64,000 nucleotides of DNA from Apostichopus japonicus (taxonomy: Eukaryota; Echinodermata; Holothuroidea; Aspidochirotida; Stichopodidae): NCBI RefSeq assembly GCF_037975245.1, contig NC_092575.1, positions 28,233,341 to 28,297,340 of the forward strand, written 5' to 3'. Of the stretch, positions 3,595 through 64,000 are shown piece by piece. The notes beneath the pieces were generated by a model. That model ran no database searches. It was not told the DNA's origin and saw nothing but the letters and a program-made list of their open reading frames with translations. Within the stretch, counting starts at the first letter, position 1, and each line of letters starts with the position of its first letter. A program made the translations under genes and the position numbers.

Positions 3595-6839
<3,245 letters not shown>

Positions 6840-39600: not shown

Positions 39601-42600
39601 AACAGCTCCAAGGTTAACATATTGAACATCATAGCAATGCCGAAACCAGAAATATGAAACGGGGTAAAACTTCCCATGCATTAATTTCTTCACAGCTACT
39701 AATCCTTGTGACAGTTCCCCTTGTTTAGCAGGAGGGACCTGTACCTCTAGCGGCACCAGTTTCACCTGTAATTGCCCTACCTTCTTTTCTGGGCCGACAT
39801 GTGGAACTTTTACGAGTGAGTTTTCACTATGACAATACATCTTTTTGCACTAGTTTACCTTAGGATTATGAGTTGATACATTAACTGTTGGATTGTAATC
39901 AAGTAATTGCATCATTTAAACTGATATATATTCCATTGTGATGATTTGGATTTTGAGTTCTATTTGTCTTTTTCCTTCTGGTTTCTTGAGGACACCTTTT
40001 GAGCCATTTTCCAGAGAAAATAAAAGTTAAACATTGTGAATCGAAATGATCTTGAATGTTTTGCAACTCTACTGGATGTCATTACAGACCATTTGCATTG
40101 AAAGGAGTCTTTCTATGTTGACAGATGTTTGGAAATGTCCAGATTATCTTTCTCAGAAGAGGCATATATACTCAGGTCTTGATGTTCTTGACTCTGTTAT
40201 ATTAAATAACTCTTCATAAATTCTTGTGCATTGTTCATTTTAAGTTTATCTCTTTTCTACCAGACCCTTGCATTAATCCCAATCCTTGCCAATCTGGTGG
40301 CACCTGTGACATAGATGCAACATCAGCTACTGGTTTTACTTGTCAATGTCCAGCTGGATTTGAAGGGAATCTTTGTCAAACTCAGATTGGTATGCTCACT
40401 GTAGCTATTTATAATTCAATCCTGAAATAACATAAATGAAGTGGGATTACATGCTGATCTAATTACTTTCAAATTATACTGTTATGATTACTTTGTAACA
40501 ATTGACAGTAAACCTGATGAAATTAAGATTAATGTTTTGAAGAATTCTTTACCAATTATTTTTTACAACATTACAAATTAAGCCATACAATTATTTGATC
40601 TTTTCCATTGTTTAACTTTTCCCAGTCAGTTTTCGAATATTTGTTTACTTATAAACATAATTACAGACAGAAAACCTCCAGGTCTGTACTTAATCAAACT
40701 TGACTATGTTTAATTATATCTGACGCATGTCAGCTGGTGGACTACATTGTTGCTATATTTAAGTTCCAAACCTGTTGAACATTAGCTATTTAGCTGAAGT
40801 ATGTTTAAGAACTGAACCTCCTGCCAGCATTCACTGAGTTGCATATTCTGAAAGTATAATCTCATGAATATTTGTATTTAAAATTATGCAAATTATTCAA
40901 AATGTAGATCAACATTTCATAGCTGGGGCCAGGGCTGCCAGCAGTCGATCCTTGTAGCAGTAACCCTCGTCAGAACCAGGGCACATGTATTGGAATCGAG
41001 GGAATGTACACGTTTCTTTGTGAATAAGCACCTACTTTCTTTGGCAGCTGCTGTGAAATTTTTACATGTCAGTTTACACAAACATGGTACGGGACATGCT
41101 AAACTGTTTTAAACATGGGTTGAGACATGCTAAACTGTTACAAATATGATTTGGGACATGCTAAACCGTTAAAAACATGGGTTGAAACATGTTAAACCGT
41201 TAAAAGCATGGGTTGGGACATGCTAAACAGTTAAAAACATGGGTTGGAACGTGCTAAACCATCATGGGTTAAAACTTGCTAAACCGTTGAAAACATCGAT
41301 TGGGACATGCTTAATCTTTAAAAACATGTGTTGGGACATGCTTAACCGTTACAAACATTGGTTGGCACATACTAAACCGTTAAAAACATGGGTTGGGACA
41401 TGCTTAACCATTACAAACAAGGATTGGGACCTAGTAAACTGGTAAAACATGGGTTGAACATGCTAAACCATTAGAAACATGTGTTGGGACTTTCCTAAAC
41501 GTTAAACACATGTGTTGGGACATTCTAAACCGTTAAAAACATAAGTTGGGACACGCTAAACCATTACAAACATGGTGCACGGACTCACTACGTTTTGTTC
41601 TTTGACATTATTTTGTTTATGTTTCAGTCGACAGAAATCAAAATAAGACTCTGACAGTACATGTTCGAATAGTAGCCAGGGTCCATGCATTTCTGACACA
41701 AAATGTACATCTCAGCATTGTCATCATCCTAACCTATTTCGGTTATGATCAATTTACTATAAAGTCCTGTTATAATTGCATTCTTTGCTACAAAACTCAT
41801 CACTTTGAACTGACAAACGGATAAATAATATGTTAGTAGCACCTAGGAGCACATCACATGACTATCCATGGTTGGTACGCTTCCCTACTGTGAAGCGAGA
41901 CCAGATCATACACATTATAATGCTTCCTATAGGTTGCAGCCACAACTATATCTACGAGTTATCTTGCTGGTTCCGCCATTTTGTACACCTGGTTGAAAAG
42001 AGGCAATTGAGATTAAGTGTCTTGCCCGACGACACAACATAGTGTTCAGACCGGCCATAGCTCACAAGCCCATTGCCTTTAATACCCTCTCTATCAGCTC
42101 TGTCACCTCACCCTACCAAATCATTCAGTAATTTCACAGCACCAACTTGATCTCCCAGCCCATTAAGTTACCCTACTCTTCCCATAATTCCACTCATCTT
42201 ATCACAATGTCTTTTTGCATCCATATTATTTTGTGTTAAAGGTTTCCATACAATAATTCATTTACCATGATTTTCTTGCCATGATTCCACTAAGATCATC
42301 ACAACTTCTTTTTGAATCAGAAGTTTAAATATTTCTTACAGTTTTCAATGTAAACTTTCCATGCATTAATTTCTTCACAGCTGGTAATCCTTGTGACAGT
42401 TCCCCCTGTTTAGTAGGAGGGACCTGTACCTCTAGCGGCACCAGTTTCACCTGTAATTGCCCTAACTTCTTTACTGGACCGACATGTGAAACTTTTACGC
42501 GTGAGTGTTCACTATGACAATACATCATTTTGCACTAGTTAACCTTAGGATTATGAGTTGATACATGAACAGTTGTATGGTAAGCAAGTAATTGCATCAT

Positions 42601-45600
42601 TTTAAATGATATATATATTCCATTGTGATGGTTGGAACAGGTTTTCCTAAACTTTTTACTTTTAAGAATAATGACAGACAGAAAACACCAGGTCTTTTCT
42701 TAATCAAGCTTGACTCTGTTTAATTATATCTGACTCATGTCAGCTGGTGGACTACATTGTTGCTAAATATACGTTCGAAACCTAGTGAACATTAGTTATC
42801 TCCCAACCCATTAAGTTACCCTAGTCTTCCCATGATTCCACTCATCTTATCACAACGTCATTTTGCATCCATATTATGTTGTGTTTAAAGATTCCACGCG
42901 ATGATTCCTTTACCATGATTTTCTTGCCATGATTCCACTAATATCATGACAACTTCTTTTTGAATCCCAAGTTTAAATATTTCTTACAGTTTTCAAGGTA
43001 AACTTTCTTCACAGCTGGTAATCCTTGTGACAGTTCCCCCTGTTTAGCAGGAGGGACCTGTACCTCTAGCGGCACCAGTTTCACCTGTAATTGCCCTAAC
43101 TTCTTTTCTGGACCGACATGTGAATATTTTACGAGTGTGTGTTCACTATGACAATATATTATTTTGCACTAGTTTACTTTAGGATTATGAGTTGATACAT
43201 TAACTGTTGGATTGTAATCAAGTAATTGCATCATTTAAACTGATATATATTCCATTGTGATGATTTGGATTTTGAGTTCTATTTGTCTTTTTCCTTCTGG
43301 TTTCTTGCGGACACCTTTTGAGCCATTTTCCAAAGAAAATAAAAGTAAAAAATTGTGAATCGAAATGATCTTGAATGTTTTGCAACTCTACTGGATGTCA
43401 TTACAGACCATTTGCATTGAAAGGAGTCTTTCTATGTTGACAGATGTTTGGAAATGTCCAGATTATCTTTCTCAGAAGAGGCATATATACTCAGGTCTTG
43501 ATGTTCTTGACTCTGTTATATTAAATAACTCTTCATAAATTCTTGTGCATTGTTCATTTTAAGTTTATCTCTTTTCTACCAGACCCTTGCATTAATCCCA
43601 ATCCTTGCCAATCTGGTGGCACCTGTGACATAGACGCAACATCAGCTACTGGTTTTACTTGTCAATGTCCAGCTGGATTTGGAGGGAATCTTTGTCAAAC
43701 TCAGATTGGTATGCTCACTGTAGCTATTTATAATTCAATCCTGAAATAAGATAAATGAAGTGGGATTACATGCTGATTTAATTACTTTCAAATTATACTG
43801 TTATGATTACTTTGTAACAATTGACAGTAAACCTGATGAAATTAAGATTAATGTTTTGAAGAATTCTTTACCAATTATTTTTTACAACATTACAAATTAA
43901 GCCATACAATTCTTTGATCTTTTCCATTGTTTAACTTTTCCCAGTCAGTTTTCGAATATTTGTTTACTTATAAAAATAATTACAGACAGAAAACCTCCAG
44001 GTCTGTACTTAATCAAACTTGACTATGTTTAATTATATCTGACTCATGTCAGCTGGTGGACTACATTGTTGCTATATTTAAGTTCCAAACCTGTTGAACA
44101 TTAGCTATTTAGCTGAAGTATGTTTAAGAACTGAACCTCCTGCCAGCATTCACTGAGTTGCATATTCTGAAAGTATAATCTCATGAATATTTGTATTTAA
44201 AATTATGCAAATTATTCAAAATGTAGATCAACATTTCATAGCTGGGGCCAGGGCTGCCAGCAGTCGATCCTTGTAGCAGTAACCCTTGTCAGAACCAGGG
44301 CACATGTATTGGAATCGAGGGAATGTACACGTTTCTTTGTGAATAAGCACCTACTTTCTTTGGCAGCTGCTGTGAAATTTTTACATGTCAGTTTACACAA
44401 ACATGGTACGGGACATGCTAAACTGTTTTAAACATGGGTTGAGACATGCTAAACTGTTACAAATATGATTTGGGACATGCTAAACCGTTAAAAACATGGG
44501 TTGAAACATGTTAAACCGTTAAAAGCATGGGTTGGGACATGCTAAACAGTTAAAAACATGGGTTGGGACGTGCTAAACCATCATGGGTTAAAACTTGCTA
44601 AACCGTTGAAAACATCGATTGGGACATGCTTAATCTTTAAAAACATGTGTTGGGACATGCTTAACCGTTACAAACATTGGTTGGCACATACTAAACCGTT
44701 AAAAACATGGGTTGGGACATGCTTAACCATTACAAACAAGGATTGGGACCTAGTAAACTGGTAAAACATGGGTTGAACATGCTAAACCATTAGAAACATG
44801 TGTTGGGACTTTCTTAAACGTTAAACACATGTGTTGGGACATTCTAAACTGTTAAAAACATAGGTTGGGACATGCTAAACCATTACAAACATGGTGCACG
44901 GACTCACTACGTTTTGTTCTTTGACATTATTTTGTTTATGTTTAAGTTGACAGAAATCAAAATAAGACTCTGACAGTACATGTTCGAATAGTAGCCAGGG
45001 TCCATGCATTTCTGACACAGAAGGTACATCTCAGCATTGTCATCATCCTAACCTATTTCGGTTCTTATCAATTTACTATAAAGTCCTGTTATAATTGCAT
45101 TCTTTGCTACAAAACTCATCACTTTGAACTGACAAACGGATAAATAATATGTTAGTAGCACCTAGGAGCACATCACATGACTATCCATGGTTGGTACGCT
45201 TCCCTACTGTGAAGCGAGACCAGATCATACACATTATAATGCTTCCTATAGGTTGCAGCCACAACTATATCTACGAGTTATCTTGCTGGTTCCGCCATTT
45301 TGTACACCTGGTTGAAAAGAGGCAATTGAGATTAAGTGTCTTGCCCGACGACACAACATAGTGTTCAGACCGGCCATAGCTCACAAGCCCATTGCCTTTA
45401 ATACCCTCTCTATCAGCTCTGTCACCTCACCCTACCAAATCATTCAGTAATTTCACAGCACCAACTTGATCTCCCAGCCCATTAAGTTACCCTACTCTTC
45501 CCATAATTCCACTCATCTTATCACAATGTCTTTTTGCATCCATATTATTTTGTGTTAAAGGTTTCCATGCAATAATTCATTTACCATGATTTTCTTGCCA

Positions 45601-48600
45601 TGATTCCACTAAGATCATCACAACTTCTTTTTGAATCAGAAGTTTAAATATTTCTTACAGTTTTCAATGTAAACTTTCCATGCATTAATTTCTTCACAGC
45701 TGGTAATCCTTGTGACAGTTCCCCCTGTTTAGTAGGAGGGACCTGTACCTCTAGCGGCACCAGTTTCACCTGTAATTGCCCTAACTTCTTTACTGGACCG
45801 ACATGTGAAACTTTTACGCGTGAGTGTTCACTATGACAATACATCATTTTGCACTAGTTAACCTTAGGATTATGAGTTGATATATGAACAGTTGTATGGT
45901 AAGCAAGTAATTGCATCATTTTAAATGATATATATATTCCATTGTGATGGTTTGGAACAAGTGTTCCTAAATTTGTTTACTTTTAAAAATAATGACAGAC
46001 AGAAAACACCAGGTCTTTTCTTAATCAAGCTTGACTATGTTTAATTATATCTGACTCATGTCAGCTGGTGGACTACATTGTTGCTAAATATACGTTCGAA
46101 ACCTAGTGAGCATTAGTTATCTCCCAACCCATTAAGTTACCCTACTCTTCCCATGATTCCACTCATCTTATCACAACGTCATTTTACATCCATATTATAT
46201 TGTGTTTAAAGATTCCATGCGATTATTCCTTTACCATGATTTTCTTGCCATGATTCCACTAATATCATCACAACTTCTTTTTGAATCCCAAGTTTAAATA
46301 TTTCTTACAGTTTTCAAGGTAACTTTCCATGCATTAATTTCTTCACAGCTGGTAATCCTTGTGACAGTTCCCCCTGTTTAGCAGGAGGGACCTGTACTTC
46401 TAGCGGCACCAGTTTCACCTGTAATTGCCCTAACTTCTTTACTGGACCGACATGTGAAACTTTTACGAGTGTGTGTTCACTATGACAATATATAATTTTC
46501 ACTAGTTTACCTTAGGATAATGAGTTGATACATTAACTGTTGGATTGTAATCAAGTAATTGCATCATTTAAACTGATATATATTCCATTGTGATGATTTG
46601 GATTTTGAGTTCTATTTGTCTTTTTCCTTCTGGTTTCTTGAGGACACCTTTTGAGCCATTTTCCAAAGAAAATAAAAGTTAAACATTGTGAATCGAAATG
46701 ATCTTGAATGTTTTGCAACTCTACTGGATGTCATTACAGACCATTTGCATTGAAAGGAGTCTTTCTATGTTGACAGATGTTTGGAAATGTCCAGATTATC
46801 TTTCTCAGAAGAGGCATATATACTCAGGTCTTGATGTTCTTGACTCTGTTATATTAAATAACTCTTCATAAATTCTTGTGCATTGTTCATTTTAAGTTTA
46901 TCTCTTTTCTACCAGACCCTTGCATTAATCCCAATCCTTGCCAATCTGGTGGCACCTGTGACATAGATGCAACATCAGCTACTGGTTTTACTTGTCAATG
47001 TCCAGCTGGATTTGAAGGGAATCTTTGTCAAACTCAGATTGGTATGCTCACTGTAGCTATTTATAATTCAATCCTGAAATAACATAAATGAAGTGGGATT
47101 ACATGCTGATCTAATTACTTTCAAATTATACTGTTATGATTACTTTGTAACAATTGACAGTAAACCTGATGAAATTAAGATTAATGTTTTGAAGAATTCT
47201 TTACCAATTATTTTTTACAACATTACAAATTAAGCCATACAATTATTTGATCTTTTCCATTGTTTAACTTTTCCCAGTCAGTTTTCGAATATTTGTTTAC
47301 TTATAAACATAATTACAGACAGAAAACCTCCAGGTCTGTACTTAATCAAACTTGACTATGTTTAATTATATCTGACGCATGTCAGCTGGTGGACTACATT
47401 GTTGCTATATTTAAGTTCCAAACCTGTTGAACATTAGCTATTTAGCTGAAGTATGTTTAAGAACTGAACCTCCTGCCAGCATTCACTGAGTTGCATATTC
47501 TGAAAGTATAATCTCATGAATATTTGTATTTAAAATTATGCAAATTATTCAAAATGTAGATCAACATTTCATAGCTGGGGCCAGGGCTGCCAGCAGTCGA
47601 TCCTTGTAGCAGTAACCCTCGTCAGAACCAGGGCACATGTATTGGAATCGAGGGAATGTACACGTTTCTTTGTGAATAAGCACCTACTTTCTTTGGCAGC
47701 TGCTGTGAAATTTTTACATGTCAGTTTACACAAACATGGTACGGGACATGCTAAACTGTTTTAAACATGGGTTGAGACATGCTAAACTGTTACAAATATG
47801 ATTTGGGACATGCTAAACCGTTAAAAACATGGGTTGAAACATGTTAAACCGTTAAAAGCATGGGTTGGGACATGCTAAACAGTTAAAAACATGGGTTGGA
47901 ACGTGCTAAACCATCATGGGTTAAAACTTGCTAAACCGTTGAAAACATCGATTGGGACATGCTTAATCTTTAAAAACATGTGTTGGGACATGCTTAACCG
48001 TTACAAACATTGGTTGGCACATACTAAACCGTTAAAAACATGGGTTGGGACATGCTTAACCATTACAAACAAGGATTGGGACCTAGTAAACTGGTAAAAC
48101 ATGGGTTGAACATGCTAAACCATTAGAAACATGTGTTGGGACTTTCCTAAACGTTAAACACATGTGTTGGGAAATTCTAAACCGTTAAAAACATAAGTTG
48201 GGACACGCTAAACCATTACAAACATGGTGCACGGACTCACTACGTTTTGTTCTTTGACATTATTTTGTTTATGTTTCAGTCGACAGAAATCAAAATAAGA
48301 CTCTGACAGTACATGTTCGAATAGTAGCCAGGGTCCATGCATTTCTGACACAAAATGTACATCTCAGCATTGTCATCATCCTAACCTATTTCGGTTATGA
48401 TCAATTTACTATAAAGTCCTGTTATAATTGCATTCTTTGCTACAAAACTCATCACTTTGAACTGACAAACGGATAAATAATATGTTAGTAGCACCTAGGA
48501 GCACATCACATGACTATCCATGGTTGGTACGCTTCCCTACTATGAAGCGAGACCAGATCATACACATTATAATGCTTCCTATAGGTTGCAGCCACAACTA

Positions 48601-57600: not shown

Positions 57601-60600
57601 AGGGCACATGTATTGGAATCGAGGGAATGTACACGTTTCTTTGTGAATAAGCACCTACTTTCTTTGGCAGCTGCTGTGAAATTTTTACATGTCAGTTTAC
57701 ACAAACATGGTACGGGACATGCTAAACTGTTTTAAACATGGGTTGAGACATGCTAAACTGTTACAAATATGATTTGGGACATGCTAAACCGTTAAAAACA
57801 TGGGTTGAAACATGTTAAACCGTTAAAAGCATGGGTTGGGACATGCTAAACAGTTAAAAACATGGGTTGGGACGTGCTAAACCATCATGGGTTAAAACTT
57901 GCTAAACCGTTGAAAACATCGATTGGGACATGCTTAATCTTTAAAAACATGTGTTGGGACATGCTTAACCGTTACAAACATTGGTTGGCACATACTAAAC
58001 CGTTAAAAACATGGGTTGGGACATGCTTAACCATTACAAACAAGGATTGGGACCTAGTAAACTGGTAAAACATGGGTTGAACATGCTAAACCATTAGAAA
58101 CATGTGTTGGGACTTTCTTAAACGTTAAACACATGTGTTGGGACATTCTAAACTGTTAAAAACATAGGTTGGGACATGCTAAACCATTACAAACATGGTG
58201 CACGGACTCACTACGTTTTGTTCTTTGACATTATTTTGTTTATGTTTAAGTTGACAGAAATCAAAATAAGACTCTGACAGTACATGTTCGAATAGTAGCC
58301 AGGGTCCATGCATTTCTGACACAGAAGGTACATCTCAGCATTGTCATCATCCTAACCTATTTCGGTTCTTATCAATTTACTATAAAGTCCTGTTATAATT
58401 GCATTCTTTGCTACAAAACTCATCACTTTGAACTGACAAACGGATAAATAATATGTTAGTAGCACCTAGGAGCACATCACATGACTATCCATGGTTGGTA
58501 CGCTTCCCTACTGTGAAGCGAGACCAGATCATACACATTATAATGCTTCCTATAGGTTGCAGCCACAACTATATCTACGAGTTATCTTGCTGGTTCCGCC
58601 ATTTTGTACACCTGGTTGAAAAGAGGCAATTGAGATTAAGTGTCTTGCCCGACGACACAACATAGTGTTCAGACCGGCCATAGCTCACAAGCCCATTGCC
58701 TTTAATACCCTCTCTATCAGCTCTGTCACCTCACCCTACCAAATCATTCAGTAATTTCACAGCACCAACTTGATCTCCCAGCCCATTAAGTTACCCTACT
58801 CTTCCCATAATTCCACTCATCTTATCACAATGTCTTTTTGCATCCATATTATTTTGTGTTAAAGGTTTCCATACAATAATTCATTTACCATGATTTTCTT
58901 GCCATGATTCCACTAAGATCATCACAACTTCTTTTTGAATCAGAAGTTTAAATATTTCTTACAGTTTTCAATGTAAACTTTCCATGCATTAATTTCTTCA
59001 CAGCTGGTAATCCTTGTGACAGTTCCCCCTGTTTAGTAGGAGGGACCTGTACCTCTAGCGGCACCAGTTTCACCTGTAATTGCCCTAACTTCTTTACTGG
59101 ACCGACATGTGAAACTTTTACGCGTGAGTGTTCACTATGACAATACATCATTTTGCACTAGTTAACCTTAGGATTATGAGTTGATACATGAACAGTTGTA
59201 TGGTAAGCAAGTAATTGCATCATTTTAAATGATATATATATTCCATTGTGATGGTTGGAACAGGTTTTCCTAAACTTTTTACTTTTAAGAATAATGACAG
59301 ACAGAAAACACCAGGTCTTTTCTTAATCAAGCTTGACTCTGTTTAATTATATCTGACTCATGTCAGCTGGTGGACTACATTGTTGCTAAATATACGTTCG
59401 AAACCTAGTGAACATTAGTTATCTCCCAACCCATTAAGTTACCCTAGTCTTCCCATGATTCCACTCATCTTATCACAACGTCATTTTGCATCCATATTAT
59501 GTTGTGTTTAAAGATTCCACGCGATGATTCCTTTACCATGATTTTCTTGCCATGATTCCACTAATATCATGACAACTTCTTTTTGAATCCCAAGTTTAAA
59601 TATTTCTTACAGTTTTCAAGGTAAACTTTCTTCACAGCTGGTAATCCTTGTGACAGTTCCCCATGTTTAGCAGGAGGGACCTGTACCTCTAGCGGCACCA
59701 GTTTCACCTGTAATTGCCCTAACTTCTTTTCTGGACCGACATGTGAAACTTTTACGAGTGAGTGTTCACTATGACAATATATTATTTTGCACTAGTTAAC
59801 CTTAGGATTATGAGTTGATACATTAACTGTTGTATTGTAATCAGTAATTGCATCATTTAAACTGATATATATTTCATTGTGATGATTTGGATTTTGAGTT
59901 CTATTTGTCTTTTTCCTTCTGGTTTCTTGCGGACACCTTTTGAGCCATTTTCCAAAGAAAAGAAAAGTTGAAAATTGTGAATCAAAATTATCTTGAATTT
60001 TTTTGGAACTCTACTGGATGTCATTACAGACCATTTGCATTAAAAGGAGTCTTTCTATGTTGACAGATGGTTGGAAATGTCCAGATTATCTATTTCAGAA
60101 GAGGCGAATATACACAGGTCTTGATGTTCTTGACTCTGTTATATTAAATAACTCTTCATAAATTCTTCTGTATTGTTTATTTTAAGTTGATCTTGTTTCT
60201 ACCAGACCCTTGCGTTAATCCCAATCCTTGCCAGTCTGGTGGCATCTGTGAGGTGGACGCAACATCAGCTACTGGTTTTACTTGTCAATGTCCAGCTGGA
60301 TTTGGAGGGAATTTTTGTCAGACTCAGATTGGTATGTTCATTGTAGCTATTTATTTCAATCCCGAAATAAGATAAATGAAGTGGGATTTCATGCTGATTT
60401 AATTACTTTCAAATTATACTGTTTTGACTCATTATTTTTTACAACATAACATATTTAGCCATACATTTCTTCGTTCTATTCCATTGTTTAACTTTTCCCA
60501 GTCAGTTTTTGAATATTTGTTTACTTAAAAAATAAATACAGACAGAAAACCTCCAGTCTGTACATAGTCAAGCTTGACTATTGTTAAGACCCGGATCTCT

Positions 60601-63600
60601 CGATCCACTGGCAGCAGGGACCCAAGCACCAATCCACCACGTCACATGTAAAACTGTGAGACGGAGAGAGGAAACCAGTTTCGTTTAAGTTGTTGTAACG
60701 TTAAGGCACATGTTATTCAATCACTGATATAACAAAACAATAACTGTGCAGTCTCACATTTAAACTTAACTGCATATTTGGATAAGGCATCTGAATGGAT
60801 TTTCCTTCTGGCATAAACAAAGGCTACTTCTAGTTCTTAAAATAATAAACTGAAACCTGCTCAATCTTTCTAATAATTCAATACATAACAATACAATCAA
60901 TCTGGCGGACCGTAAATACTTATTTCTATCTGGATCATTTCGGGGAATCCCCTACTCTTGTTACTACGCAATGACGTCACCCCTCATGACAGTTCTAACG
61001 ACCAAATGTACACGCTGTAGCCTATTCATAACGCTATGTCACTGAGCAACATTGCGTACAGAGAAATTACCTAAAATGTCACATCTACGGCATCCTGATA
61101 CATATGATATACTATTATTAACAACATCAAGAATTAAACCACGTTTGTACTGATATGACTCGTGTAAATTATGATTTTGTACCACTAATCGAACTTTAAC
61201 GACAAACAATTGTTATGCGAATATACGTAGGCCCATGATAACACAGACATATCCTACATACAAACCTGACGGTCTCGTTTTTAACGAATATTAACTCTCA
61301 TGTATCGATGGCAAATCTAGACCATCCGTCATAATGAAACACTTTTAATAACGACAAATATTTAATCAACAACCTAGTAATACTTTCATATTCACATGAA
61401 AGGGATTTTAGCATCATCTTACCTGTGAGACCTAGAGAGGAAAACCAGTTTCGTTTAAGTTGTTGTAACGTTAAGGCACATGTTATTCAATCGCTGAGGC
61501 TCAGCCCACCATACACGCTATTGAACGCCAAAACAAACAAATTTTGGGTAGGGCACCGCTAATCATACGAATAACACTATGTTTAATTATATCTGACTCA
61601 TGTCAGCTAGTGGACTACATTGTTGCTAAATATGCGTTCAAAACCTAGTGAACATTAGTTATTTAGGTGAAGAGGTTAGGATTTGCTGATTGGGTAATTG
61701 ATGAATGTTATCACCTAACTTTAACTAAGTGTGTCTATCTGTCATTTAGAAGGTGGAAGTTAATTAAATAACTTGAAGCTGATTGGCTCCCGGACATCTG
61801 CTTGGTTAGCAAAATTATTGCTTTATTGTTTTGGTCTTCGACATTTTTTTGTTTAAGTTGACAGAACTCAAAATAATTTTGTTTGGTGTCTTGACACTTC
61901 TCTAGAAATTTGTATTTTTTGAAATTTGTTAATTTGCCAAAGCAGTAATGCTGTAGTGAAAGATAGTGTAAAAGTTTCTGTCATTGAGAGTCGATTCTCT
62001 TCTTGTCGACTCTGTTCATGTCGATTCCATTCTTGTTTATATATTATTCATATTAATATATTGTTCTTGTTGATATATTATTCTTGTTCTTATATAGACA
62101 CAAATAGCAGACGACATGATTCACTGTTTCTTAGCAACATATGTCTCATTGCCGCTTTGGCACATAACATGATGGTAGTGACCCGCCGAATACACTCCAT
62201 AAGACTCAGACAGTACATGTTCGAATAGTAGCCAGGGTCCATGCATTTCTGACACATAATGTACATTTCAGCATTGTCATCATCCTATCCTAAGCTGTTA
62301 TTATCAATTTACTGTAAAGTCCTGCTATCATTGCATTCCTTTTTCTACAAAACTCTTATCATTTTGAACTGACAAACGGATAAATAATATGTTAGTAGCA
62401 CCTAGGAGCACATCACATGACCGTCCATGGTTGGTACGCTTCCCTACTGTGAAGCGAGACTCCCAAATCATACACAATTCATATGGCGGGCAATCAATCT
62501 CAAATCGTGGGGAATCGACCTGTACCGATTTAAATCGACATATACCAATTTCATTCGACGTTTACCAGTTTCCAGCAGCTTAAATTGACTTCTACCGATT
62601 TAAATCGACATATACCAGTTTAATTCGACATATCATCGATTTAAATCGACATATACCAATTTAAATCGACATATACTACTCTTCCCATAATTCAGTATCA
62701 TTTGCATCCATATTATATTGTTTTCAAGGTAAACTTTCCTTGCATTAATTTCTTCACAGCTGGTAATCCTTGTGACAGTTCCCCCTGTTTAGCAGGAGGG
62801 ACCTGTACCTCTAGCGGCACCAGTTTCACCTGTAATTGCCCTACCTTCGTGACTGGACCGACATGTGGAACATTTAGGAGTGAGTATCACTATGACAATA
62901 CATCATTTTGCACTAGTTTACCTTAGGATTATGAGTTGATACATTGAAAGAATAGTTCAGGTAAAAATTTCTTTTTAGTATGTTGCAGAAGATCATAATC
63001 TCAGCATTCTAGTGAAATTTCCATGCAGTTGCTATGTACCGTTATTGAGATATTAAAAGTTGAAGTTATCTAATATTCTACCAAAAGTGTACTTGAAACA
63101 AACATTTGTGATGTCATAGTTGCACACTGACAAATAATGTTTTGTTTCTTCTTTATTTTTCAGTTTATTGATTTGACCTTGGATTGGATAAGGTTACCAT
63201 TTGTTTTAAAGTGGATGTGAAGTTTATATAATACCAATACATGTGGTACATTCATATTATGGATGCATCCAATTGTGTAGTATAAAATTAGACATAAATT
63301 TTAAAGGAAAAAAAAAACATCATTTAACAGTGTGCAACAATGATGTCACACCTGTTTGCTCTAAGTTTACTTTTGGTACGAAAGGTGGCAACTTCAACTT
63401 TAATATCTCAAAACGGTACAAAGTAGTTGAATGCAAATTTCACCAGAATGATTACATTATGTTCCTCTTTAACATATGAAAAAGACAATTTGAGCTGGAC
63501 TATTCTTTTAACTGTTGCATTGTTATCAAGTAATTGCATCCTTTTAAATGATATATATATATATAAATTCCATTTTGATGGTTTGGAACAATTCATACTT

Positions 63601-64000
63601 CAGCTGTTTTTCTGGTAGGTTGAACACAAGAATACTTTGTTTTCATGATTTGGATTATAAGTTCTATTTGTCTTTTTCCTTCTGGTTTCTTGCGGACACC
63701 TTATTAGCCATTTTCCAAAGAAAAGAAAAGTTGATAATTGTGAATCAAAATTATCATGAATGTTTTGCAACTCGGCTGGATGCAATTACAGACCATTTGC
63801 ATTGAAAGGAGTCTTTCTATGTTGACAGATGGTTGGAAATGTCCAGATTATTAATTTCAGAAGAGGCGAATATACTCAGGTCTTGATGTTCCTGACTCTG
63901 TTATATTAAATAACTCGTCATGAATTATTCTGTATTGTTTATTTTAAGTTGATCTTGTTTCTACCAGACCCTTGCGTTAATCCCAATCCTTGCCAGTCTG
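9468..64000 (+). CDS. Reeler domain plus multi-EGF gene, incomplete at both ends
   Basis: One long gene read from splice sites and phases. Three exons (126, 244 and 71 bases; phases 1-1, 1-2, 2-1) join into a Reeler domain of about 147 residues. Thirty-three complete EGF-like exons of 111-126 bases follow, and one more is cut by the window end. Every EGF exon has length divisible by three and phase 1-1, which is typical of extracellular modules. The product should be secreted or an ectodomain; Reeler domains occur in reelin, F-spondin and relatives, and EGF arrays usually mediate adhesion or ligand binding. Several modules carry the O-glucose motif C-x-S-x-P-C and the O-fucose motif C-x4-S/T-C known from Notch-type EGFs. 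Missing: the signal-peptide exon upstream and everything 3' of the EGF array. The second half is a tandem exon array. No orthologue name is claimed. Confidence 0.85.
9747..9875 (+). repeat. Two-copy tandem duplication of about 62 bp
   Basis: CAACATTCATGTTAT, AAACAATGG and GGACCAGTTTGCAGCG blocks occur twice, with a partial third start (CATTCAACG). Confidence 0.85.
10958..11265 (+). repeat. Minisatellite, about 30-bp unit
   Basis: Degenerate repeats built from AACCTACACTACTATAACA and TACATTACTCT blocks, about ten copies. Confidence 0.85.
11816..12474 (+). repeat. Perfect 120-bp tandem array, about 5.5 copies
   Basis: The unit begins TAGATTCAGGGGTAGTTACT. Five complete units and a final half-unit ending CTCTTTAA show no difference by eye. 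The 5' flank is CTTAGA where inner copies have CATAGA. Confidence 0.97.
12848..12905. repeat. C-run and (CA)n microsatellite
   Basis: A run of ten C followed by interrupted CA and CGCA repeats. Confidence 0.9.
13110..13233. repeat. tRNA-containing repeat, copy B, left part
   Basis: Begins with the trailer in minus orientation (GTTGGAAAATACAGAACAG), then switches to the plus-orientation leader (ATCCGGCTTTAGGAATCAC, TTTCGAGTTGG). It ends at the insertion point of the element at 13234; the copy resumes at 14117. Confidence 0.7.
13234..14116. mobile_element. Non-autonomous inverted-repeat DNA transposon (MITE or foldback type), 883 bp
   Basis: The termini are TACGGCGGTCATAAGGTGAC and its exact reverse complement, and terminal complementarity continues with few mismatches for about 70 bp. 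It is flanked by CTAGAG on both sides (13228-13233 and 14117-14122). The uninterrupted sister copy at 6303 reads CTCTAGAGTAAGG, so the empty site is known. A 6-bp duplication gives perfect TACGGCGG ends; an 8-bp reading (CTAGAGTA) is also possible. The interior is direct repeats of about 105 bp, each with palindromic TCGACAAAAATCAAAATTTT cores. No transposase is encoded. Confidence 0.85.
14117..14250 (+). repeat. tRNA-containing repeat, copy B, right part
   Basis: Continues from the insertion (CTAGAGTAAGGCAA, GTCACCAAA, GTATTGTTCGATACAGG), then jumps to CCCCGGTGGAGG and the trailer, so most of the tRNA-like core is deleted. Confidence 0.75.
14461..14513. repeat. (TA)n microsatellite
   Basis: About 25 TA units. 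Confidence 0.95.
14540..14840 (-). repeat. tRNA-containing repeat, copy C, full leader and core
   Basis: On the minus strand it runs from the leader (CGAGATCCGGCTTTAGG near 14830) through GTTGGTTAGCATCC, CAGAACTAGTATTGTTCG and GGTTTCGAACCTCTGG to the tRNA-like core and trailer. Confidence 0.85.
14587..14657 (-). tRNA. Well-folded tRNA-like sequence, anticodon loop ATATAAA
   Basis: On the minus strand: acceptor GCGTCCA/TGGAGGC (6 of 7 pairs), D-arm GCCC/GGGT, anticodon stem TCCGC/GCGGG with seven-base loop ATATAAA (U33 present, anticodon AUA), T-arm CCGGG/CCCGG with loop TTCGAAC. A and B boxes are intact and TTTT follows within about ten bases. AUA would read the Tyr codon UAU, which is unusual, and the copy sits inside a dispersed repeat. 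It is most likely a tRNA-derived repeat; a real tRNA gene is less likely. Confidence 0.45.
14890..15002 (-). repeat. tRNA-containing repeat, copy D, truncated
   Basis: The trailer and the 3' half of the tRNA-like core (CCTCCACCGGGGTGCGGAAC; the B box is mutated) break off at ATGCGGACAC into a CA run. Confidence 0.75.
14999..15083. repeat. (AC)n then (TA)n microsatellite
   Basis: It looks expanded from the ACAC of the truncated tRNA-like core. Confidence 0.9.
15098..15160. repeat. Inverted repeat with 17-bp perfect arms
   Basis: ACCTTAGGTCGACAGTT at 15098-15114 and its exact complement at 15144-15160, with a 29-base loop. Confidence 0.9.
15172..15236. repeat. (TA)n microsatellite
   Basis: About 32 TA units. 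Confidence 0.95.
15259..15446. repeat. Long hairpin, arms about 86 bp
   Basis: Left arm 15259-15344 and right arm 15360-15446 are nearly exact complements, with a loop of about 15 bases. TA microsatellites lie on both sides. This resembles a small foldback element inserted in TA-rich DNA. Confidence 0.85.
15447..15522. repeat. (TA)n microsatellite
   Basis: TA run directly abutting the hairpin. Confidence 0.95.
15632..15735. repeat. (TA)n microsatellite with TACA interruptions
   Basis: TA run followed by short ACATACATA interruptions. Confidence 0.9.
15795..16038 (+). CDS. Reeler exon 2 (core of the domain)
   Basis: Acceptor TTATACAG, donor CAG/GTACAG, phase 1-2. It encodes [16 protein letters not shown], matching the conserved 'G..I.V.GF.LQAR' of Reeler domains, then [17 protein letters not shown] (the second conserved Cys and the TVTH-like segment) and [16 protein letters not shown] (the beta-strand region before the domain end). 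Confidence 0.88.
16039..16631. other. Intron between Reeler exons 2 and 3
   Basis: AT-rich intron; apart from the 41-bp duplication nothing is recognised. Confidence 0.8.
16173..16258 (+). repeat. Two-copy 41-bp tandem duplication
   Basis: CGCGGCATGTGTATTGGTAT recurs 41 bases later with one change. Confidence 0.9.
16632..16702 (+). CDS. Reeler exon 3 (end of the domain)
   Basis: Acceptor TATATTTTAG, donor AAG/GTAAGC, phase 2-1. Its first base completes Arg with exon 2. It encodes [18 protein letters not shown], matching the 'TVVQ....FW' end of Reeler domains. Confidence 0.85.
16703..18148. other. Intron between the Reeler domain and EGF1
   Basis: A G-run near 16820 and two scraps of dispersed repeat. 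A short open frame at 17090-17296 has no recognisable domain. Confidence 0.6.
18149..18265 (+). CDS. EGF1 exon
   Basis: Acceptor CTAATTAG, donor GCAGG/GTAATT, 117 bases, phase 1-1. Six cysteines are present but C1 and C2 are separated by only two residues ([10 protein letters not shown]), unusually short. The C3-C4 loop is proline-rich ([10 protein letters not shown]). Confidence 0.88.
18266..19481. other. Intron EGF1-EGF2
   Basis: It contains a ~75-bp duplication of the EGF1 donor region (CAGCAGGGTAAT recurs near 18331) and a G-rich tract near 19069-19110. No exon is seen. Confidence 0.7.
19482..19595 (+). CDS. EGF2 exon
   Basis: Acceptor CTGTTAG, donor TTG/GTATGT, 114 bases, phase 1-1. 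Encodes [16 protein letters not shown] and [12 protein letters not shown]; the last fits the C5-C6 motif for extracellular O-GlcNAc (C-x-x-G-F-S-G). The C3 motif has Leu, so the O-fucose site is absent. Confidence 0.93.
19596..21145. other. Intron EGF2-EGF3
   Basis: It has a short TA run (20666-20680), C-runs near 20770-20820 and an ATTTGCATA repeat (21018-21070, about five copies, each with the POU octamer ATTTGCAT). No exon is seen. Confidence 0.7.
21146..21262 (+). CDS. EGF3 exon
   Basis: Acceptor TTTAATAG, donor AACA/GTATGT, 117 bases, phase 1-1. Encodes [17 protein letters not shown] and [12 protein letters not shown]. Closely resembles EGF2 in layout, suggesting an old tandem exon duplication. 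The O-fucose motif CFNGGTC is intact. Confidence 0.93.
21263..22812. other. Intron EGF3-EGF4
   Basis: AT-rich, with TTAAAAA-rich low complexity at 22270-22370 and a strong G-rich tract at 22478-22516 that could form a quadruplex. No exon is seen. Confidence 0.7.
22478..22516 (+). repeat. G-rich, quadruplex-prone tract
   Basis: At least five G-runs of three or more separated by one to three bases, inside the intron on the coding strand. Confidence 0.7.
22813..22923 (+). CDS. EGF4 exon
   Basis: Acceptor CTCTATAG, donor ATAG/GTAACT, 111 bases, phase 1-1. Encodes [16 protein letters not shown] and [12 protein letters not shown]. Confidence 0.93.
22924..24315. other. Intron EGF4-EGF5
   Basis: Unique-looking AT-rich sequence; no exon or notable repeat seen. 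Confidence 0.6.
24316..24432 (+). CDS. EGF5 exon
   Basis: Acceptor TTTAAACAG, donor CAAA/GTAAGT, 117 bases, phase 1-1. Encodes [17 protein letters not shown] and [12 protein letters not shown]. The O-fucose motif (CINGGSC) and the C5-C6 O-GlcNAc-type motif are both present. Confidence 0.94.
24433..25147. other. Intron EGF5-EGF6
   Basis: It contains a degenerate ~95-bp repeat (about 24749-24990, two and a half copies) built round TTGCTCCATAATT, GTTGCTTCTC and TTGCATGCAG. Confidence 0.65.
25148..25270 (+). CDS. EGF6 exon
   Basis: Acceptor TTTTGGAG (weak polypyrimidine tract), donor ATGG/GTATGT, 123 bases, phase 1-1. Encodes [18 protein letters not shown] and [12 protein letters not shown]. 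Confidence 0.88.
25597..25795 (+). repeat. Three-copy ~70-bp tandem repeat
   Basis: Blocks GCATGTTTGATTG, TAACATGTACAAA and CATCATTGATACATAT recur three times. Confidence 0.85.
27200..27920 (+). repeat. Minisatellite, ~55-bp unit
   Basis: About thirteen diverged copies built from TACTCCTATGATATGTTAT, AAATAATAAGAGAACTATTG and CTTAGTGTAAAATAAAG. Confidence 0.9.
27990..28106 (+). CDS. EGF7 exon
   Basis: Acceptor TTTTTACAG, donor ATAG/GTAATT, 117 bases, phase 1-1. Encodes [16 protein letters not shown], with O-glucose (CASNPC) and O-fucose-type (CQGGQTC) motifs. The C5-C6 loop is atypical ([10 protein letters not shown]), lacking the usual Gly-aromatic-Gly. Confidence 0.92.
28107..29070. other. 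Intron EGF7-EGF8
   Basis: Mostly the ~27-bp minisatellite listed separately. Confidence 0.8.
28255..28990 (+). repeat. Minisatellite, ~27-bp unit
   Basis: Degenerate copies of ACCAGCATAGTGTCATTAGA with CTAGGA or AAGTG spacers, about 25 copies. Confidence 0.9.
29071..29190 (+). CDS. EGF8 exon
   Basis: Acceptor TTTTCCTCAG, donor ACTG/GTAGTT, 120 bases, phase 1-1. Encodes [18 protein letters not shown] and [12 protein letters not shown]. Its C-terminal loop resembles EGF7 and EGF9, so EGF7-9 form a subfamily. Its 3' part is the source of the downstream partial duplications. Confidence 0.92.
29145..29760 (+). repeat. Tandem array of the EGF8 exon 3' part plus donor and intron, unit 142-147 bp
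   Basis: TGTGCCTGCATGACACCTAC begins at 29145 (inside EGF8) and recurs, with changes, at 29292, 29434, 29581 and 29728. Each of the first three extra copies keeps CCCACTGGTAGTAACACTT, that is the donor, then the same intron stretch (TTCATGTTGTTTAGTTGACA). The fourth is degraded. Confidence 0.92.
29282..29340 (+). pseudogene. Truncated EGF8 exon copy 1
   Basis: Encodes [12 protein letters not shown]-like residues with donor GTAGTAAC but lacks the first four cysteines. It is preceded by TATTCTACAG, which could act as an acceptor. Similar fragments follow near 29424-29482, 29571-29629 and 29718. Confidence 0.7.
29761..30684. other. Remainder of intron EGF8-EGF9
   Basis: More diverged echoes of the EGF8 3' repeat may be present (GGAGCCTGCATTACACCTGC near 30090). 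No exon is seen. Confidence 0.5.
30685..30807 (+). CDS. EGF9 exon
   Basis: Acceptor ATTGTCCAG, donor CTAG/GTACAC, 123 bases, phase 1-1. Encodes [17 protein letters not shown] and [10 protein letters not shown]. The O-glucose motif CASSPC is present; C2-C3 is one residue short, removing the O-fucose motif. Confidence 0.92.
31220..31400 (+). repeat. Three-copy degenerate repeat
   Basis: CAGTATGAATA, CCTGTTTCTA and GCTTACAAACTG blocks recur about every 60-70 bases. Confidence 0.75.
31867..32255 (+). repeat. ~206-bp tandem duplication
   Basis: CATGACTTCCACACCC at 31867 and CATGACTTCTGCACCC at 32073 start two similar copies that include CCACATAATCCTTAT and AGATACTACCCTAGCATAAA. Confidence 0.85.
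32448..32558 (+). CDS. EGF10 exon
   Basis: Acceptor CTTTACAG, donor TCAG/GTAATT, 111 bases, phase 1-1. Encodes [18 protein letters not shown] and [19 protein letters not shown] fits O-fucose. The NPNPC-like start resembles the later B-type modules. Confidence 0.93.
32559..33548. other. Intron EGF10-EGF11
   Basis: Three G-runs (near 32842, 33231 and 33469); otherwise nothing recognised. Confidence 0.7.
33549..33671 (+). CDS. EGF11 exon
   Basis: Acceptor CTTCTCAG, donor ATGT/GTAAGG, 123 bases, phase 1-1. Encodes [17 protein letters not shown] and [12 protein letters not shown], with O-glucose (CDSQPC), O-fucose (CMNQATC) and C5-C6 O-GlcNAc-type motifs. Confidence 0.93.
33672..35045. other. 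Intron EGF11-EGF12, source of a later duplicated segment
   Basis: The stretch about 34580-34700 (AGTATGTTTAAGAACTGAAC ...) is copied in every downstream cassette just before the dead EGF12 copy, identifying where the cassette came from. Confidence 0.85.
35046..35168 (+). CDS. EGF12 exon
   Basis: Acceptor TTACCCGCAG, donor ACAG/GTCAGT, 123 bases, phase 1-1. Encodes [19 protein letters not shown] and [13 protein letters not shown]-glucose (CSSNPC) and O-fucose (CQNQGTC) motifs are present. It is the parent of six dead copies in the array. Confidence 0.93.
35175..39390 (+). repeat. Large intronic minisatellite, ~31-bp unit, about 4.2 kb
   Basis: The consensus is close to GGGTTGGGACATGCTAAACC then GTTAAAAACAT. 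About 135 diverged copies start within ten bases of the EGF12 donor and fill almost the whole intron. Open frames across it (GWDMLN, VGTCL) are artefacts. Confidence 0.97.
36995..37560 (+). repeat. Internal 279-bp duplication (nine 31-bp units)
   Basis: GGACATTCCTTACCGTCACA occurs at 37001 and again at 37280, and the following ~230 bases repeat almost exactly. Confidence 0.85.
39696..39815 (+). CDS. EGF exon A0
   Basis: Acceptor TTCTTCACAG, donor ACGA/GTGAGT, 120 bases, phase 1-1. Encodes [19 protein letters not shown] and [12 protein letters not shown]. The O-glucose (CDSSPC) and O-fucose (CLAGGTC) motifs are intact. The C5-C6 loop FFSGP lacks the usual Gly before the aromatic residue. First A-type module; not followed by an A2. 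Confidence 0.94.
39816..40263. other. Intron A0-B1
   Basis: This intron type recurs after each A2 exon (AACTGATATATATTCCATTG, GGTTTCTTG, GACAGATGTTTGG). No repeats of other kinds. Confidence 0.85.
40264..40389 (+). CDS. EGF exon B1
   Basis: Acceptor TTTCTACCAG, donor ATTG/GTATGC, 126 bases, phase 1-1. Encodes [18 protein letters not shown] and [12 protein letters not shown]. The O-fucose motif CQSGGTC is present; the O-glucose motif is absent (INPNP). Glu variant in the last loop. Confidence 0.94.
40945..41067 (+). pseudogene. Dead EGF12 copy P1
   Basis: Same length as EGF12 (123 bases) with the acceptor CCAGCAG kept. C2 is changed to Arg (CCTCGT), an in-frame TAA follows TGTGAA, and the donor ACAG/GTCAGT has become ACATGTCAG. 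It cannot be spliced in as a coding exon. Confidence 0.9.
41068..41575 (+). repeat. 31-bp minisatellite piece M1
   Basis: About 16 units of the same repeat as at 35175-39390, in the same position relative to the EGF12-type exon. Confidence 0.95.
41820..42080 (+). repeat. Dispersed-repeat fragment within each cassette
   Basis: Starts GTTAGTAGCACCTAGGAGCA and includes AAGTGTCTTGCCCGACGACA. Copies occur at 45139, 48472, 51791, 55124 and 58443, and a truncated version near 62387. Its open frame ([10 protein letters not shown]) is not supported as a gene. The family is unidentified. Confidence 0.7.
42381..42500 (+). CDS. EGF exon A1a
   Basis: Acceptor TTCTTCACAG, donor ACGC/GTGAGT. Encodes [15 protein letters not shown] and [14 protein letters not shown]. 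Val replaces the Ala of A0; Thr variant in the last loop. Confidence 0.93.
43015..43134 (+). CDS. EGF exon A2a
   Basis: Encodes [15 protein letters not shown] and [14 protein letters not shown]. The donor is ACGA/GTGTGT, weaker than the GTGAGT of A0 and A1, so inclusion is uncertain. Confidence 0.82.
43583..43708 (+). CDS. EGF exon B2
   Basis: As B1 but with Gly in the last loop (GFGGNLC) and GAC for the Asp codon. Splice sites unchanged. Confidence 0.94.
44264..44386 (+). pseudogene. Dead EGF12 copy P2
   Basis: Keeps C2 (CCTTGT) unlike P1 but has the same TAA and the same destroyed donor. Confidence 0.9.
44387..44894 (+). repeat. 31-bp minisatellite piece M2
   Basis: As M1 with a few substitutions (TTGGGACGTG in place of TTGGAACGTG). 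Confidence 0.95.
45700..45819 (+). CDS. EGF exon A1b
   Basis: Same protein as A1a (LVGG, NFFTG), donor ACGC/GTGAGT. Confidence 0.93.
46349..46468 (+). CDS. EGF exon A2b
   Basis: Even-type A2: LAGG and [12 protein letters not shown]. The acceptor is extended by CCATGCATTAATTT. The donor is GTGTGT. Confidence 0.82.
46916..47041 (+). CDS. EGF exon B3
   Basis: Same as B1 (Glu variant). Confidence 0.94.
47597..47719 (+). pseudogene. Dead EGF12 copy P3
   Basis: As P1: Arg in place of C2, TAA, lost donor. Confidence 0.9.
47720..48227 (+). repeat. 31-bp minisatellite piece M3
   Basis: As M1, plus the GGGAAATTC variant near 48170. Confidence 0.95.
49033..49152 (+). CDS. EGF exon A1c
   Basis: LVGG with NFFNGPTC: Thr to Asn (ACT to AAT) relative to A1a. 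Donor GTGAGT. Confidence 0.93.
49667..49786 (+). CDS. EGF exon A2c
   Basis: Same as A2a ([12 protein letters not shown]), donor GTGTGT. Confidence 0.82.
50235..50360 (+). CDS. EGF exon B4
   Basis: Same as B2 (Gly variant). Confidence 0.94.
50916..51038 (+). pseudogene. Dead EGF12 copy P4
   Basis: As P2. Confidence 0.9.
51039..51546 (+). repeat. 31-bp minisatellite piece M4
   Basis: As M2. Confidence 0.95.
52352..52471 (+). CDS. EGF exon A1d
   Basis: Same as A1b. Confidence 0.93.
53001..53120 (+). CDS. EGF exon A2d
   Basis: Same as A2b, donor GTGTGT. Confidence 0.82.
53568..53693 (+). CDS. EGF exon B5
   Basis: Same as B1 and B3 (Glu variant). Confidence 0.94.
54249..54371 (+). pseudogene. 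Dead EGF12 copy P5
   Basis: As P1 and P3. Confidence 0.9.
54372..54879 (+). repeat. 31-bp minisatellite piece M5
   Basis: As M3, including GGGAAATTC. Confidence 0.95.
55685..55804 (+). CDS. EGF exon A1e
   Basis: Same as A1c (Asn variant). Confidence 0.93.
56319..56438 (+). CDS. EGF exon A2e
   Basis: Same as A2a and A2c, donor GTGTGT. Confidence 0.82.
56887..57012 (+). CDS. EGF exon B6
   Basis: Same as B2 and B4 (Gly variant). Confidence 0.94.
57568..57690 (+). pseudogene. Dead EGF12 copy P6
   Basis: As P2 and P4. Last dead copy seen; the next cassette lacks it. Confidence 0.9.
57691..58198 (+). repeat. 31-bp minisatellite piece M6
   Basis: As M2 and M4. Confidence 0.95.
59004..59123 (+). 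CDS. EGF exon A1f
   Basis: Protein as A1a (Thr variant), in odd-type flanks although its position is in an even slot. Confidence 0.93.
59638..59757 (+). CDS. EGF exon A2f
   Basis: LAGG with [12 protein letters not shown], and the strong donor ACGA/GTGAGT, unlike A2a-e. It may be the ancestral A2 state. Confidence 0.92.
60206..60331 (+). CDS. EGF exon B7
   Basis: Diverged B type: [18 protein letters not shown] and GFGGNFC. Ile replaces Thr before C3, so the O-fucose motif is lost. Acceptor TTTCTACCAG, donor ATTG/GTATGT. Confidence 0.93.
60582..61576. mobile_element. Solo-LTR-like insertion, 995 bp
   Basis: It begins TGTTAAGACC and ends GAATAACA: TG...CA with 5-bp inverted ends TGTTA/TAACA, flanked by CTAT on both sides (60578-60581 and 61577-61580). 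Sister cassettes read through the empty site (CTTGACTATGTTTAATTA). Inside, a ~74-bp direct repeat (60654-60726 and 61423-61496, containing CAGTTTCGTTTAAGTTGTTG) is present. No coding capacity. LTR orientation is undetermined. Confidence 0.75.
62505..62675 (+). repeat. ~28-bp array of ATTTAAATCGACATATACC
   Basis: Six or seven degenerate units with TCGACATATACCAATTT or TACCGATTTAAATCGACAT. Absent from the sister cassettes. Confidence 0.9.
62760..62879 (+). CDS. EGF exon A8
   Basis: A type closest to A0: [15 protein letters not shown] and [14 protein letters not shown]. Acceptor TTCTTCACAG, donor AGGA/GTGAGT, phase 1-1. Confidence 0.94.
62880..63967. other. Intron A8-B8
   Basis: Starts and ends like other A-to-B introns but has about 600 bases of extra sequence between about 62945 and 63550. 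Part of that extra looks inverted: a block near 62957-63110 reappears in opposite orientation near 63360-63500. Confidence 0.6.
63968..64000 (+). CDS. EGF exon B8, cut by the window end
   Basis: Acceptor TTTCTACCAG followed by the first 33 bases of a B-type exon ([11 protein letters not shown]), most like B7. The array therefore continues beyond the window. Confidence 0.9.

Follow-up and report, generated by a model that had tools for sequence, protein, structure and literature searches.

The 64,000-nucleotide stretch of Apostichopus japonicus DNA analysed here (the window; C15:28,233,341-28,297,340) raises the question of how a higher-order tandem repeat with coding exons came to lie inside a gene, and what its repeat number means for the encoded protein. 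We conclude that it is probably a coding VNTR that expanded recently and is organised in higher-order repeats, located in a large multi-EGF gene that most likely encodes a membrane protein. Genome-wide searches covered 671,581,487 bases on 35 contigs.

Using the B exon start as anchor, the steps between successive B exons were 3319, 3333, 3319, 3333, 3319, and 3319 bp, followed by 3762 bp (Table 1). An initial reading of the sequence alone had proposed a higher-order repeat with a true period of 6652 bp, and this period was borne out. Identical 24-mers occurred 12,570 times at lag 6652, whereas five first-order Markov controls had none; exact identity at this lag extended without a break for up to 9,746 bp (42475-52220), and 16.4 kb was exactly periodic. 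Units u2 and u4 were identical (0/3333 differences), as were u3 and u5 (0/3319), and u1 differed from u3 at 3 of 3319 positions and from u5 at three sites as well. Alpha and beta units were separated by 44–47 substitutions and four gap events (~1.4%), and similarity between higher-order copies far exceeded that between the monomers of one copy (0–3 vs. 44–47 substitutions). Each 3.3-kb half-unit contained two A exons (120 bp) and one B exon, the cassette composition proposed initially, and the 6652-bp unit contained four A and two B exons. The A/A-prime pair represents an internal duplication of ~0.65 kb with 89–92% identity.

The array comprised two complete dimers, u5, and a mixed u6. The span first suggested for it was 39660 to 64000; the homogeneous part began near 39.67 kb and ended at ~60.59 kb rather than at 64.0 kb. 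The proposed alternation of 3319- and 3333-bp steps held for the first five steps; the last was again 3319 bp because u6 is mixed. This unit carried the beta state at 21/21 informative positions up to position 1627 and the alpha state at 21/26 from position 1987, with private differences near its end. From this pattern we read u6 as a probable product of exchange between alpha and beta types. The alpha state of its tail may instead be ancestral, which would weaken the recombinant reading. A rough alignment over the whole of the older cassette u7 showed 28–29% divergence, its recognisable parts being 77–95% identical, and piecewise homology revealed neither the dead exon psi-C nor the 31-bp minisatellite in it.

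Table 1. Features of the locus (window numbering; positions beyond 64,000 lie in L001-L003).
Feature	Position	Strand	Remarks
Eleven single EGF exons upstream of exon C	18149..33671	+	Exon scan, Pfam
EGF exon C, intact counterpart of psi-C	35046..35168	+	
31-bp minisatellite block between exons C and A1	35181..39378	+	
Homogeneous tandem array (A1-B1, six AAB cassettes to B7, flank)	39668..60587	+	Self-BLAST, lag identity
EGF exon A1	39696..39815	+	
EGF exon B1, 126 bp	40264..40389	+	Further B exon starts at 43583, 46916, 50235, 53568, 56887, 60206, plus 63968
Unit u1 (alpha), 3319 bp	40264..43582	+	Measured between successive B exon starts
psi-C, dead EGF exon C copy (TAA in frame)	40945..41067	+	Also at 44264, 47597, 50916, 54249, 57568
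31-bp minisatellite in unit intron	41080..41575	+	Also at 44399, 47732, 51051, 54384, 57703
Interspersed repeat in each unit intron	41643..41914	+	Relative at 62199-62476
EGF exon A-prime of u1	42381..42500	+	Copies in other units at 45700, 49033, 52352, 55685, 59004
EGF exon A of u1	43015..43134	+	Copies in other units at 46349, 49667, 53001, 56319, 59638
Unit u2 (beta), 3333 bp	43583..46915	+	
Unit u3 (alpha), 3319 bp	46916..50234	+	
Unit u4 (beta), 3333 bp	50235..53567	+	
Unit u5 (alpha), 3319 bp	53568..56886	+	
Unit u6, mixed alpha/beta	56887..60205	+	
Unit u7, older diverged cassette (B7, interspersed repeat, single A)	60206..63967	+	Rough alignment, piecewise homology
Single A exon of u7	62760	+	Piecewise homology
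Ser/Thr-rich exon	82,558-82,791	+	Added by hand
Last exon, hydrophobic helix and stop	88,214-88,395	+	Our placement, added by hand

The location of the array inside a gene, also part of the sequence-only reading, was confirmed by a plus-strand model of EGF exons that spans it and places the host gene at ~18–88 kb, an extent that the first reading had not recognised. A tblastn search of 224 kb with the A and B modules, which applied no splice criterion, located 40 sites in the interval from 18 to 84 kb, each of them on the plus strand. All 40 were recovered by an exon scan and are present in the gene model. The scan required AG and GT borders, phase 1, and an EGF pattern, and therefore misses exons of other phases; it returned 46 rows from 18,149 to 93,325. 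Of the 48 exons in the resulting model, 46 encode exactly six cysteines each, one is rich in Ser/Thr, and one is transmembrane. Segment 85,958-86,050 was likewise added by hand, and the scan row at 93,194 was omitted because the last exon's stop precedes it. Nearer acceptors were chosen manually for the starts of C, the 67-kb exon, and several A exons. Up to the last exon, all 47 exons have AG/GT borders and a length that is a multiple of three, which the scan itself required of most of them.

Symmetry of the modelled exons (phase 1, length a multiple of three) means that the reading frame is preserved whatever the number of cassettes; in this sequence-derived model, multi-kb units of exons and introns thus lie within one gene and are frame-safe at any copy number. 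No 5' end could be located for the gene, and the predicted protein has ~1,970 residues excluding its N-terminal start. The array and its two trailing exons provide 14 A and 8 B modules, i.e., 22 of the 46 EGFs and, by arithmetic, 896 residues. The tail predicted after the membrane helix has only ~20 residues, and the gene product is most likely a membrane or cell-surface protein. Past the stop of the gene, at ~92,781-94,046 (L003:8781 to L004:46), a second Ser/Thr-rich open frame, the EGF-like exon at 93,194, and a frame with a hydrophobic helix were observed, which represent either another gene or an alternative 3' end.

All 14 A and all 8 B exons, including the older pair beyond the array at 62,760 and 63,968, were open, bordered by AG and GT, and encoded six cysteines. 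The EGF spacing of these cysteines and the Pfam EGF match identify them as EGF-like domains. Pfam scored EGF far over the cut-off for one cassette and for both flanking chains, and the flanking chains matched EGF-type families only (E 0.01). The closest PDB structures by sequence were EGFs of Delta-like 1 and Notch. Among the 150 of 1,671 candidates scored genome-wide for A-type modules, the best 14 matches all lay in the array gene and the others reached at most 68% identity; for B-type modules (150 of 1,200 candidates scored), the best 8 all lay in this gene and the others reached at most 66%. By consensus patterns, Notch-type O-fucose sites were predicted in 37 of the 45 EGFs caught by the EGF pattern and O-glucose sites in 22 of the 45.

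Fibropellin and Notch genes encode chains of Notch-type EGF modules with one module per exon, and the host gene resembles them in this respect. Fibropellin additionally has an avidin-like domain, and Notch receptors have LNR modules after the EGF chain and intracellular ankyrin repeats. At E 0.001, no avidin-like domain was found within C15:28.153-28.377 Mb (12 Avidin matches in the genome), and no LNR in the 224 kb around the gene (two genome matches, on C7 and C22). Because both matches were absent, the identities of fibropellin and of Notch were rejected and the gene was filed as neither. Elsewhere, at C19:12,891,128-12,894,325, matches to EGF and to an avidin-like domain lie ~3 kb apart and mark a candidate fibropellin gene. 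The references of PMC10381214 include a 2015 study of Fibropellin-Ia in the regeneration of A. japonicus.

A feature of every cassette that is new in the present analysis is the dead exon psi-C, which follows B in 6/6 units. Its copies differ from exon C at 16–17 of 123 bases and share the same in-frame TAA; in u1, u3, and u5 a cysteine is also changed to arginine, a change that u2, u4, and u6 lack. The AG and GT borders are retained in 6/6 copies, but the pyrimidine content of the acceptor was 0.39 in the two units tested, compared to 0.56–0.89 in 28 live EGF exons. Additionally, the ~340 bp directly before exon C are missing before psi-C. Loss of this segment in the copy would be simpler than its gain at the working exon. 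Homology resumes farther upstream, where 34,579-34,698 matches 40,797-40,921 with 91% identity. We dropped the idea of a duplicated block starting exactly at the splice site of exon C, because 34579-34698 has a homologue in each unit. In the simplest account, psi-C would have lost its branch and pyrimidine region, fallen silent, decayed, and then been amplified as a passenger. The dead exon in every unit shows that amplification proceeded without exon-by-exon filtering.

Exon C and each psi-C adjoin the 31-bp minisatellite, another feature absent from the first reading. It is private to the host gene: 81/81 genome matches with at most three mismatches lay there, all on one strand, and the pattern read backwards gave 0 matches in the whole genome. 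The interspersed repeat of the unit introns had at least 38 matches elsewhere in the genome among the 39 of 653 candidates scored.

Recent amplification with introns as alike as exons, as initially proposed, agreed with the comparison of u1 and u2, which differed at 6 of 366 exonic (1.64%) and 38 of 2952 intronic positions (1.29%). This near-identity of units, introns included, is as expected for copying of DNA blocks and shows that such copying took place. Unequal crossing-over, or replication-based copying, between 3.3-kb repeats probably produced the alpha-beta dimer, and further unequal exchange probably added dimers. With each extra cassette the extracellular EGF rod would gain 122 residues, and with each dimer 244. 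Copy number would then set the distance between tip and membrane and the count of Notch-type O-glycan sites predicted by consensus patterns. Differences in copy number and protein length between alleles are likely.

The best-surviving alternative, which is compatible with the proposed mechanism and which we nevertheless consider unlikely, is that the array is neutral baggage, the gene tolerating cassettes whose copies are skipped or functionless. The dead exon in 6/6 units would fit such tolerance, as would the lack of a clear pN/pS signal. Ratios ranged from 0.31 to 1.16 in six B pairs and from 0.15 to 2.0 in 18 of 21 A pairs, the remaining three having no synonymous change. Among the older copies, exons were more alike than their 200-bp flanks in 7/8 comparisons, often by little: A1/A14 showed a clear exon excess (92.5% vs. 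78.3% and 83.4% in the flanks), B1/B7 hardly any (92.1% vs. 93.0% and 86.9%). Because neither pN/pS nor the exon/flank identities are decisive, purifying selection is not claimed as proof of function. Against neutral baggage stands the intactness of 22/22 A and B exons in reading frame, cysteines, and splice borders, while psi-C, copied along in the same units, is broken. This difference favours the reading that the A and B exons are in use.

Less probable still is that the array owes its apparent size to the assembly, with dimer copies over- or under-counted since the exact repeats are longer than many reads. The published Apostichopus japonicus assembly that matches ours (671.6 Mb, 34 scaffolds, 23 chromosomes) was built, according to the accessible text, by hifiasm from HiFi reads with a mean of 14,729 bp (PMC10344927), a length below that of the exactly periodic 16.4 kb. 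The number of copies in the assembly hinges on reads that cross this stretch, and mis-assembly could have occurred. Nevertheless, u1 differs from u3 and u5, u6 is mixed, and u7 is strongly diverged, which argues that several distinct cassettes are real, and the 224-kb region contains no Ns. A role of psi-C as a repeated poison exon tuning full-length output via nonsense-mediated decay would agree with its retained splice borders but is highly improbable given the pyrimidine-poor acceptors of the two copies tested and the missing ~340 bp.

Read as a recently expanded coding VNTR, the array is a young addition to a known class of intragenic coding repeats, with a well-preserved history. The nearest likeness is the KIV-2 array of human LPA, for which the accessible text of PMC11462820 describes 5.6-kb units with two exons each, 1 to about 40 units, and subtypes A and B. 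Both systems consist of highly alike multi-kb tandem units with short exons and long introns in one gene; in both, the repeats make up a large share of the protein, units fall into subtypes, and the unit introns contain a simple repeat (PMC11462820). Unlike the kringle-encoding KIV-2, the sea-cucumber array encodes EGF modules, its subtypes alternate as dimers, and its unit contains three live one-domain exons and one dead exon. LPA copy number is known to vary among individuals, whereas the sea-cucumber array is known from one assembly.

The layered, intragenic higher-order structure itself resembles that of NBPF genes. Their 3mer higher-order repeats (Olduvai triplets) consist, in the part of PMC9584774 available, of ~1.6-kb monomers with exons and introns within genes, and the copies in NBPF20 are ~1% apart, compared to 17–19% between monomers within a copy. 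The present array differs in domain and phylum and is dimeric, with monomers ~1.4% and higher-order copies 0–0.1% apart. This lower divergence at both levels indicates that it is much younger. Canonical NBPF copies, as described there, number at least three complete ones in tandem, compared to the two complete dimers, u5, and mixed u6 found here. As for psi-C, it resembles the decaying duplicated exons of mammals, which are disabled by a stop inside a gene (PMC2718932), but unlike these it has itself been re-amplified with the array. The same source, in its accessible part, reports that mammalian dead exons tend not to associate with EGF-like domains.

In a literature search covering titles and the beginnings of abstracts, with subscription journals mostly outside its scope, no description of such a sea-cucumber array was found. 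The accessible text of the sea-cucumber genome preprint PMC13228809 contains 0 occurrences of 'egf'. Nameable precedents for large intron-bearing coding VNTRs are human, and such arrays are poorly visible in short-read assemblies. One locus here preserves a parent exon with its dead copy, a minisatellite private to the gene, subtypes that alternate, a unit of mixed state, and a dimer in two exact copies.

Regular EGF series, which the first reading had not included, were also found on other contigs among the candidates scored with the A module (150 of 1,671) and the B module (150 of 1,200). At C19:22,982,378-23,004,871, a query from that array detected at least 17 cassettes (150 of 2,097 candidates scored), each of ~1.4 kb and with three EGF exons in the 10 kb read. 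Two of its cassettes, v6 and v3, differed at 2 of 1406 positions; the other 14 of 15 pairs differed by 0.99–6.21%. Cassette spacings of 1406, 1418, and 1353 were followed by 1406, 1418, and 1352, indicating one three-cassette block in two copies, and 20-mers peaked at lag 4177. On C9, three tested 1410-bp units showed 1–2 differences, and on C3 nine 455-bp units fell into at least two classes; both of these arrays were read by sequence comparison of their units. Cassette amplification thus appears to be a recurring process among the EGF genes of the genome. By their coordinates alone, EGF-like matches at C3:4.766-4.783 Mb and C3:5.149-5.171 Mb were partly regular, with spacings of ~1.93 kb and 3.73 kb.

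It is conceivable, but in our view doubtful, that EGF cassette amplification is a genome-wide habit, in which young, homogenised, and in some cases nested arrays within several multi-EGF genes yield length-polymorphic glycosylated surface rods that differ between individuals and maybe function in recognition or adhesion. Such a genome-wide set of length-variable EGF rods, if true, would be of greater interest than the single locus. The host animal is farmed and easily sampled, and the locus and the three other arrays, which were read in part, allow testing of the rate at which multi-domain surface proteins change in length.

Several minor observations were made in the window and elsewhere in the genome. 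Upstream of the gene, a (TA)n microsatellite of 276 copies (5752-6302), an apparently very young 120-bp tandem repeat (11817-12474; 5.5 copies, 100% match), and a 105-bp tandem repeat with internal inverted symmetry that aligns to its own reverse complement (13367-14088) were present. A 137-aa open frame at 15755-16165 (+) looked Reeler-like by eye; this assignment was rejected, with 0 Pfam families matched and the site absent from the 10 genome-wide Reeler matches. COX1 fragments with TGA codons at C29:14,745-31,219 are possibly copies of mitochondrial DNA. The mitochondrial genome itself is C35 (16,099 bp), which reads sensibly with NCBI table 9 (echinoderm and flatworm code). Reading AAA as Asn restores the expected COX1 start, and the gene order, judged from tRNAs and long frames, is that of sea urchins and sea cucumbers.
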